Assembly: GCA_003212695.1 (NCBI GenBank)
Contig: QCPC01000016.1
Span: 1 to 36,690, forward strand
Direction of reading: 5' to 3'
DNA: 36,690 bases
From: Prochlorococcus sp. AG-436-C13
Lineage (GTDB): Bacteria > Cyanobacteriota > Cyanobacteriia > PCC-6307 > Cyanobiaceae
This document shows positions 17,873 through 18,866 of the stretch, piece by piece. Positions within the stretch are counted from its first letter, which is position 1. Each line of letters starts with the position of its first letter. The position numbers were made by a program, and so were the translations under genes. A model generated the notes under the pieces. It searched no databases and was not told where the DNA came from. It worked only from the letters and a program-made list of their open reading frames with translations.

Positions 17873-18109
17873 TTATTCACTCTTAGTACGATCTAAAACA
17901 ATGAAAGTTAGAAAAATCAAAAAAGCACTTAATTGGATTACAAAATCATTAAACAACACATTTTCACCAGCCAATGATCTAAGACCCATTATCAAAAGTC
18001 CAATTCCTGCAGATGCAGTTAATGCTATCCAAATAACTTTCCTAATCCCCTTAAAAGGATTTTTTGATTCATTTAAAAGTTTTTCACGAAGTTTAGGATC
18101 TAAATTCAA
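17873..18109 (-). CDS. Small two-helix membrane protein, DUF3493 (LPA3-related) type
   Basis: This 78-residue protein begins with a polar segment MNLDPKLREKLLNESKNPF, then KGIRKVIWIALTASAGIGLLI and a second hydrophobic stretch LSAFLIFLTFIVLDR. This gives two predicted membrane helices at about residues 25-44 and 54-71. The pattern of acidic/basic lead (P-L-x-x-L...E...P..G.R...) followed by two helices resembles DUF3493, a cyanobacteria/chloroplast family that includes plant LPA3, connected with photosystem II assembly. The family call is from memory of the pattern and the function is inference. The only usable start is TTG at 18107-18109. It is convergent with infB, and its start lies 18 bases from the tRNA-Thr gene on the other strand. 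Confidence 0.72.
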   Translation of the reverse strand: MNLDPKLREKLLNESKNPFKGIRKVIWIALTASAGIGLLIMGLRSLAGENVLFNDFVIQLSAFLIFLTFIVLDRTKSE

Positions 18110-18127: not shown

Positions 18128-18199
18128 GCCGGTGTAGCTCAGAGGTAGAGCAACTGATTCGTAACCAGTAGGCCAGCGGTTCAATTCCGCTCACCGGCA
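18128..18199 (+). tRNA. trnT: tRNA-Thr (anticodon CGT)
   Basis: This is a complete cloverleaf of 72 bases without encoded CCA. The acceptor stem GCCGGTG (18128-18134) pairs perfectly with CACCGGC (18192-18198). The D arm is GCTC/GAGC. The anticodon arm is ACTGA-TTCGTAA-CCAGT, with anticodon CGT at 18160-18162. The T arm is AGCGG-TTCAATT-CCGCT. The innermost anticodon-stem pair is an A·C mismatch (18157/18165), noted under findings. A strong hairpin terminator follows at 18234. Confidence 0.96.
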
Positions 18200-18233
18200 T
18201 TAGTTTTTGAGAATAAACTCAACCAAACAATAT

Positions 18234-18265
18234 AAAAAGAAGGAGCTAATAAGCTCCTTCTTTTT
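18234..18265 (+). terminator. Strong, symmetric Rho-independent terminator after tRNA-Thr
   Basis: A perfect 14-base-pair inverted repeat has arms 18234-18247 and 18252-18265 around an AATA loop. The left arm begins with five A and the right arm ends with five T, so it can work in both directions. It most simply ends the tRNA-Thr transcript and would also block transcription entering from the right. Confidence 0.85.
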
Positions 18266-18299
18266 ATCAAGTTATAAAATAACCATCGATTATTGTAAA

Positions 18300-18622
18300 T
18301 AGAAATCGAAGCTTCTGGCTTCGGCACCTGGGGCCAAGTTTCTAGGGGTTAGGCCTATTCTCCTGTAAGGGCACCTATACGATGCAATAGAAGTATCGAC
18401 TGAATTGACGCACCTAAATCATTGATCCTTGTCGCTTCAGACGAAGGCCTACATTTTATTGAGACTGTTGGAGCAGGGGCCAGAGGTCATGCTGCTTCTA
18501 ACAAATACTCAGGTGGAGTATCTACCATAATTAGGCTCCTCCTTGAATTCGATACATACATCTTTGCTGTATCTGCCCATCAAAGCAATCAGTCTTTATG
18601 CGCATTGCATTTTAAATTTTTC
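18300..18622 (+). ncRNA. Candidate structured RNA, or relic gene, in a GC-rich intergenic block (strand uncertain)
   Basis: Between the tRNA terminator and the next gene there is no convincing protein gene, yet the base composition jumps: positions 18301-18540 are about 47% G+C by hand count in an AT-rich genome. Short perfect hairpins recur: CGAAGC/GCTTCG (18307-18312 with 18318-18323), CTTC/GAAG (18435-18438 with 18443-18446), GGTGGA/TCTACC with one G·T (18512-18526) and GATACA/TGTATC (18551-18556 with 18568-18573). The block ends with GCAAT/ATTGC (18585-18589 with 18604-18608) followed by a T/A-rich tail like a terminator. A 68-codon frame from a TTG at 18422 to 18628 exists on the plus strand, but I recognise no family in it. 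It does not match tmRNA, RNase P RNA or SRP RNA by their usual consensus motifs. Confidence 0.35.
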
Positions 18623-18654
18623 CGTTAGATAATTGTTGTTTGTTCAATTTAAAT

Positions 18655-18795
18655 ATGCAAGTGAATCCTACGGATTCAAGAGCAATAACAGCAAAGGCTT
18701 CTTAAGAAAATTTAGCAGAAGAAAAACACCAGCCTATTACTTCATCTTTTCCATCTAGCTATCAAAAGGAAGAAAGTATATTTAGAGTTTTATGA
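18655..18795 (+). pseudogene. Short interrupted reading frame (possible gene remnant)
   Basis: An ATG at 18655 opens a frame reading MQVNPTDSRAITAKAS, then TAA at 18703, and the same frame continues for 29 further codons (ENLAEEKHQPITSSFPSSYQ...) to TGA at 18793. The residue composition is protein-like and not what random AT-rich DNA would give, which suggests a decayed small gene or a gene with a point nonsense change. No family is recognised and chance cannot be excluded at this length. Confidence 0.25.
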
Positions 18796-18866
18796 ACGAA
18801 AAGAGAGACTTTAAGCTATTATTTCTCAATCAATTAGTGATTTATTAAGAATCCAATAAATCAAAG

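Follow-up and report, generated by a model that had tools for sequence, protein, structure and literature searches.

Yfr103 is the closest described counterpart of the locus analysed here. According to PMC5069720, it comprises seven paralogous noncoding RNAs (ncRNAs) of 290–328 nt in Synechococcus CC9605, which together account for 55.2% of mdRNA-Seq reads; in some picocyanobacterial populations it is the transcript of highest abundance, and its function is described as enigmatic. The homologues named there belong to marine Synechococcus, including RCC307 and WH7803, and to Prochlorococcus SS120, NATL1A, NATL2A, MIT9303 and MIT9313. The RNA has a conserved structure, responds to both light and temperature in MIT9313 and is preceded by an imperfect palindrome that spans positions −29 to −58 relative to its start (PMC5069720). 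Yfr6 of MED4 and SS120, as outlined in PMC1242208, is also a long Prochlorococcus RNA (244 nt), but is set apart from the present RNA by its description, with a possible 33-residue reading frame and other genomic places; among four strains its northern signal appeared only in MED4 and SS120. That source also describes Yfr7 as a separate RNA of about 175–200 or 300 nt.

Locus and composition

The window, i.e. the whole stretch of 36690 nt that was analysed (contig QCPC01000016.1 of Prochlorococcus sp. AG-436-C13), contains a block flanked by a tRNA-Thr gene on one side and a radical-SAM gene on the other. In all likelihood this block is a Yfr103 gene, a free-standing ncRNA gene of about 310–340 nt on the forward strand, the link to Yfr103 being made through the published description. 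The initial annotation had proposed an RNA gene here, and we support that reading because family-wide conservation of the DNA is not accompanied by a conserved reading frame, because its helices covary and because its size, its hosts, its copy number and the element upstream are compatible with those described for the ncRNA Yfr103. The segment from helix P1 through the T-rich tail (18308–18622; ends estimated) measures 315 nt, within the published Yfr103 range of 290–328 nt. The locus is organized as follows.

18128–18199: tRNA-Thr gene, preceding the block
18239–18265, forward strand: terminator-like 9 bp hairpin with a T run, following tRNA-Thr (judged from the sequence)
about 18306–18618, forward strand: Yfr103-type RNA gene, with estimated ends (BLAST conservation within the genus about 18306–18613, model match 18306–18501)

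The G+C content at 18301–18540 is 47.1%, compared with 37.6% for the whole window, and exceeds that of 99.1% of the sampled 240-base stretches in the window. The flanks are AT-rich (25.0% G+C at 18200–18299 and 29.5% at 18623–18866). The recount (47.1%, with flanks of 25–30%) thus reproduces the earlier hand estimate of about 47% amid AT-rich intergenic DNA, and the tRNA and terminator-like hairpin listed above place the block just 3′ of tRNA-Thr and its putative terminator, as had been noted. A tRNA-Thr gene adjoins the copy in six of eight tested loci of the genus (both loci of genome G004 are without it) and was not found in three loci from other genera. Between infB and tRNA-Thr, a DUF3493 (Low PSII accumulation1/Rep27) protein of 78 residues is encoded on the reverse strand (17873–18109; PF11998, E = 1.1e-16).

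Single-sequence evidence and known-RNA searches

Taken by itself, this sequence points to an RNA by its composition only. The hairpins named in the initial annotation are present, but their number does not exceed chance: the block contains five perfect hairpins with arms of five bases, versus 2.8 ± 1.8 in dinucleotide shuffles, and 40 of 200 shuffles reach as many. Nor does the single sequence fold better than expected by chance, with fold-energy z scores of −0.93 on the forward strand (19 of 100 shuffles equally good) and −1.09 on the reverse strand (15 of 100).

A small-protein gene is scarcely credible as an alternative. Its one attraction is the open frame of 68 codons at 18422–18628, but this frame stops after 11–40 codons in all nine relatives compared, a Pfam search with it gave no match and single-base insertions and deletions interrupt the block, insertions being common within it. 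The block was initially said to encode no recognisable protein, and a search for a protein homologue in Pfam or a conserved 68-codon frame in the nine relatives, either of which would have told against an RNA gene, found neither.

At gathering score, the families of Rfam 15 matched tRNA only in the window; with E values up to 5, sub-threshold matches touched just the left edge of the block, e.g. SraG on the reverse strand at 18237–18338 (E = 0.69). ARAGORN called no tmRNA and Rfam gave no match to RNase P or SRP RNA in the block, in line with the original remark that signatures of these three RNAs are missing. The proposed Rfam scan therefore yielded no family, and the accompanying guess of a Yfr family was nonetheless apt. 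Rfam has no family for this RNA. The covariance model R1 described below and its structure allow it to be annotated in most of the family, from freshwater to high-light-type lineages. A distant-mode search of a phage collection gave no match to the block.

Conservation and distribution

BLAST searches of 60 genomes with 18260–18640 as the query found the block in 29 of them. These are nine of the 14 genomes from the genus (the present one among them) and 20 of the 23 from other genera of the family, versus none of 23 elsewhere in the class. Absence of the block from close relatives had been named as evidence against an RNA gene; it is instead found widely among them, the matches within the genus spanning about 18306–18613. 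The five genus genomes that match neither by BLAST nor by model are 71–89% complete. A core-pattern scan of genome contigs returned at least 120 stretches; among the matches listed, 119 are cyanobacterial (including Prochlorococcus, Synechococcus, Cyanobium and Vulcanococcus) and one is from Verrucomicrobiales. This Verrucomicrobiales contig and three viral contigs with the search pattern are without a model match up to E = 10 and were taken as chance occurrences.

The covariance model R1 (189 positions) was built from the 40-row alignment A5 and matches the window at 18306–18501 with 161.1 bits (E = 2e-51). It matches 349 of 400 family genomes, representing 55 of 59 genera, and 233 of the 251 family genomes that are at least 90% complete with at most 5% contamination. 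Among 388 genomes of the class, scanned with the same search filters, 64 gave a match, all 64 from this family. Copy numbers from the family-wide scan are lower bounds, as stricter filters were used and at most six candidates were scored per genome. A fuller scoring of ten genomes, nine from genus g57 and one from g24, gave two to five copies in each.

Several genomes show distinctive arrangements. In G109 (contig 1, 2268036–2269129), three copies of identical score, spaced 450 bases apart in head-to-tail orientation, form a small tandem array. Genomes of genus g79 (e.g. G120, G143 and G394) contain two copies of equal or nearly equal score, 4.5–26 kb apart. Five genomes of genus g9 (G021, G098, G125, G147 and G165; 95–99% complete) gave no match to the model at E = 0.001, the best value for G021 being 0.0176, and this genus may have lost the RNA.

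Conserved secondary structure

The 151 pattern matches included 142 with enough flanking sequence, from which 123 distinct cores were aligned; three of the 123 are not the RNA. Of 81 representatives, 71 entered alignment A4 and 40, from three subgroups, entered A5 and the model. RNAalifold gave poor structures on the mixed alignments A3 and A4, and a consistent structure was obtained by folding the subgroups; structure-free covariation statistics were dominated by differences between subgroups. In the architecture derived from the subgroup foldings, P1–P4 close onto a three-way junction of P5, P6 and P7, which is followed by hairpin P8 and the terminator-like stem P9. The elements in the window, all on the forward strand, are as follows.

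18308–18312, forward strand: 5′ strand of P1, pairing with 18494–18498; two-sided changes in four of five pairs
18315–18318, forward strand: 5′ strand of P2, pairing with 18487–18490; 18315–18490 is C–U here
18323–18337, forward strand: 5′ strand of P3/P4, GGCACCTGGGGCCAA, with the GGG side of the internal loop, pairing with 18468–18481; columns invariant in A4
18352–18355, forward strand: 5′ strand of P5, pairing with 18446–18449; two-sided changes in four of four pairs
18360–18393, forward strand: P6 arm, with outer stem 18360–18363/18390–18393 and inner stem 18371–18375/18381–18385; one mismatch in each here
18396–18444, forward strand: P7 arm, with stems 18396–18402/18438–18444 and 18407–18409/18431–18433; two-sided changes in nine of nine pairs
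18410–18430, forward strand: apical loop of P7, 21 nt, GCACCTAAATCATTGATCCTT, defined by motif search and alignment A6
18468–18481, forward strand: 3′ strand of P4/P3, TTGGAGCAGGGGCC
18512–18542, forward strand: P8 hairpin GGTGGAG...CTCCTCC, predicted in the subgroup foldings, with the commonest strand types tabulated among 118 copies
18585–18622, forward strand: P9 stem GCAATC...GCATTGC with T-rich tail, a probable terminator, present in many rows of A3

Standard pairs account for 39 of the 42 conserved pairs in the window. CTGGGGC and GTTGGAGCAGG are invariant in the 71 rows of A4, as is most of GGGCACCT..CG.TGCA. The sequence of the P6 arm is near-invariant (GGGCACCT..CGATGCA); two-sided changes occur in all four pairs of its outer stem and in none of the inner stem. 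We also considered a pseudoknot between CACCT and AGGTG, a pairing that covariation cannot test because the CACCT of P6 is almost constant.

A5, which was aligned with MAFFT and not fitted to the model, shows two-sided changes in 17 of 42 pairs and 43 cells, versus 6.0 pairs and 8.3 cells in shuffles. When the structure was slid along this alignment, 9–15 pairs and 14–27 cells had two-sided changes, and 28.3–47.5% of cells were paired, compared with 90.6% in the unshifted structure; the number of further pair types (35) was equalled by one slid version (35). The larger alignment A7 (101 rows) shows two-sided changes in 27 of 42 pairs and 335 cells, versus 18.3 pairs and 76.7 cells in shuffles and 13–20 pairs and 42–90 cells in slid structures, but consists of 101 matches from 99 author-chosen sources fitted to the model and is therefore biased towards it. 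A comparison of relatives for covarying stems had been proposed at the outset, and such stems are seen (335 cells versus 76.7 in A7). Some individual hairpins were first assigned differently: the strands of those at 18307–18323 and 18435–18446 pair elsewhere in the conserved long-range structure, in P1 and P7, respectively. The hairpin at 18512–18526 overlaps P8, and the GCAAT/ATTGC stem is retained in many relatives (alignment A3).

This architecture bears on a 6S-like RNA that would bind RNA polymerase. Yfr7 is 6S RNA. The present RNA resembles it as an abundant structured cyanobacterial RNA (abundance from PMC5069720), but differs in giving no Rfam 6S match at gathering score or up to E = 5, in forming a three-way junction and not one long bulged hairpin, and in being longer than most Yfr7 signals; we regard a 6S-like role as improbable.

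Comparison with Yfr103

The RNA resembles Yfr103 in its length of about 300 nt, the presence of Synechococcus paralogues, overlapping hosts and a conserved secondary structure; an imperfect palindrome upstream of Synechococcus copies may be a further resemblance. RCC307, a published Yfr103 host, carries the core pattern, and the matching genomes also include those that we take to be SS120, NATL2A and WH7803. Several Synechococcus copies are preceded, about 55–87 bases upstream of P1, by an imperfect palindrome of 30–32 nt (AGGCCGCC...GACGGCCT); if this is the published palindrome, the RNA would start about 26 bases before P1. Other copies have neighbouring conserved sequence further upstream. 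Inverted repeats scoring at least 9 lie upstream of 50 of 116 copies, versus one of 116 after shuffling.

The present copy also differs from the described Yfr103. One copy was found in this incomplete assembly (79.4% complete), compared with the seven paralogues reported for CC9605; its P7 arm carries the 21 nt loop, which occurs in seven of 59 sampled genera; and the inverted repeat upstream of it looks like the terminator of tRNA-Thr (18239–18265).

Diverged copies and the relocated P7 loop

Genus g17, which we take to be the high-light Prochlorococcus clade, with its 1657990-base genome presumably that of MED4, is represented by six genomes, four of them single contigs of 1.64–1.78 Mb. Each has one diverged copy (E = 5e-17 to 1.5e-10). 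These copies keep most pairs of P1–P6, many with two-sided changes such as C–G to A–U in P3, where the outer pairs become A–U or U–A; the exceptions are one U–U and one A–G opposition, and P1 of the putative MED4 copy did not align. All nine P7 pairs are absent. The P7 loop GCACCTAAATCATNGATCCTT is instead found upstream of the core, in a hairpin with a copy-specific stem (A6); in the putative MED4 copy the first three letters of the loop differ and 18 nt are kept.

A search of 121 genomes with a 23 nt motif covering the loop, allowing up to two mismatches, gave 25 occurrences in 21 genomes and seven of 59 genera, and the reversed control gave none. The 24 places with a listed model match (all except that in G062) each lie inside the match or just 5′ of it.

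The Prochlorococcus hosts of Yfr103 named in PMC5069720 include no high-light strain, and the putative MED4 place (about 979830–980180) is absent from Table 1 of PMC2518516; it may appear in Voigt et al. (2014) or in an additional file of PMC3898218. A diverged Yfr103-type copy in high-light-type genomes, with the arm gone from the junction and its loop upstream, is apparently unreported. We tentatively suggest that high-light Prochlorococcus, putative MED4 included, might keep a diverged Yfr103 in which the P7 loop is a portable recognition module for a partner that cannot change, although we put this at somewhat less than an even chance. If so, one of the most abundant cyanobacterial RNAs of the ocean would contain a portable module.

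Possible function

A base-pairing small RNA is a possible but rather unlikely explanation, in which the P7 loop, whose complement AAGGATCAATG resembles a ribosome-binding site and start codon, would block translation of mRNAs. The loop is nearly invariant across seven genera while the remainder diverges, it is held in a hairpin loop at both positions and partial complements recur within genera (AAGGAGCCATGATTTA in three of four g79 genomes and AATGATCAATGATTTA in three of four g17 genomes), but relatedness alone may explain such recurrence within a genus. Complements with at most one mismatch outside the RNA numbered 12 in 15 genomes, versus seven for the reversed control, and 10 versus 11 in a second search; none was common to two genera, judged by matched letters, and across these 15 genomes no antisense target shared by different clades was seen. 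Moreover, most sampled genomes are without the loop (motif in 21 of 121).

We prefer an RNP scaffold or sponge of high abundance to such a regulator. The proposal that the RNA acts in trans, as an abundant RNA or a scaffold for an RNP, is one that we put close to, but below, an even chance. In this reading, a common partner would sit on the invariant P3/P4 core (CTGGGGC/TTGGAGCAG) and on the hairpin GGGCACCT..CG.TGCA, and the P7 arm would present a clade-specific loop to a second partner. Yfr103 is reported as the most abundant transcript of picocyanobacterial populations at sea (PMC5069720), and the P3/P4 core and the relocated P7 loop are the features of interest for functional tests.

A cis-acting leader or riboswitch would agree with a structured RNA that has a terminator-like end, but the downstream genes differ in identity and strand among the clustered loci, none being consistent, which makes this highly improbable. 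A repeat or mobile element that serves no function in the cell is also very improbable, if slightly less so: many genomes hold several copies, including the g79 pairs (4.5–26 kb apart) and the three G109 copies (450 bases apart), but the two-sided changes, the tRNA-Thr neighbourhood in six of eight genus loci and the conserved sequence upstream of Synechococcus copies speak against it.

A 92-base portion of the RNA contains the hexamer GCACCT three times, at 18324 (P3), 18371 (P6 arm) and 18410 (P7 loop), compared with 17 occurrences on the same strand across the whole window.
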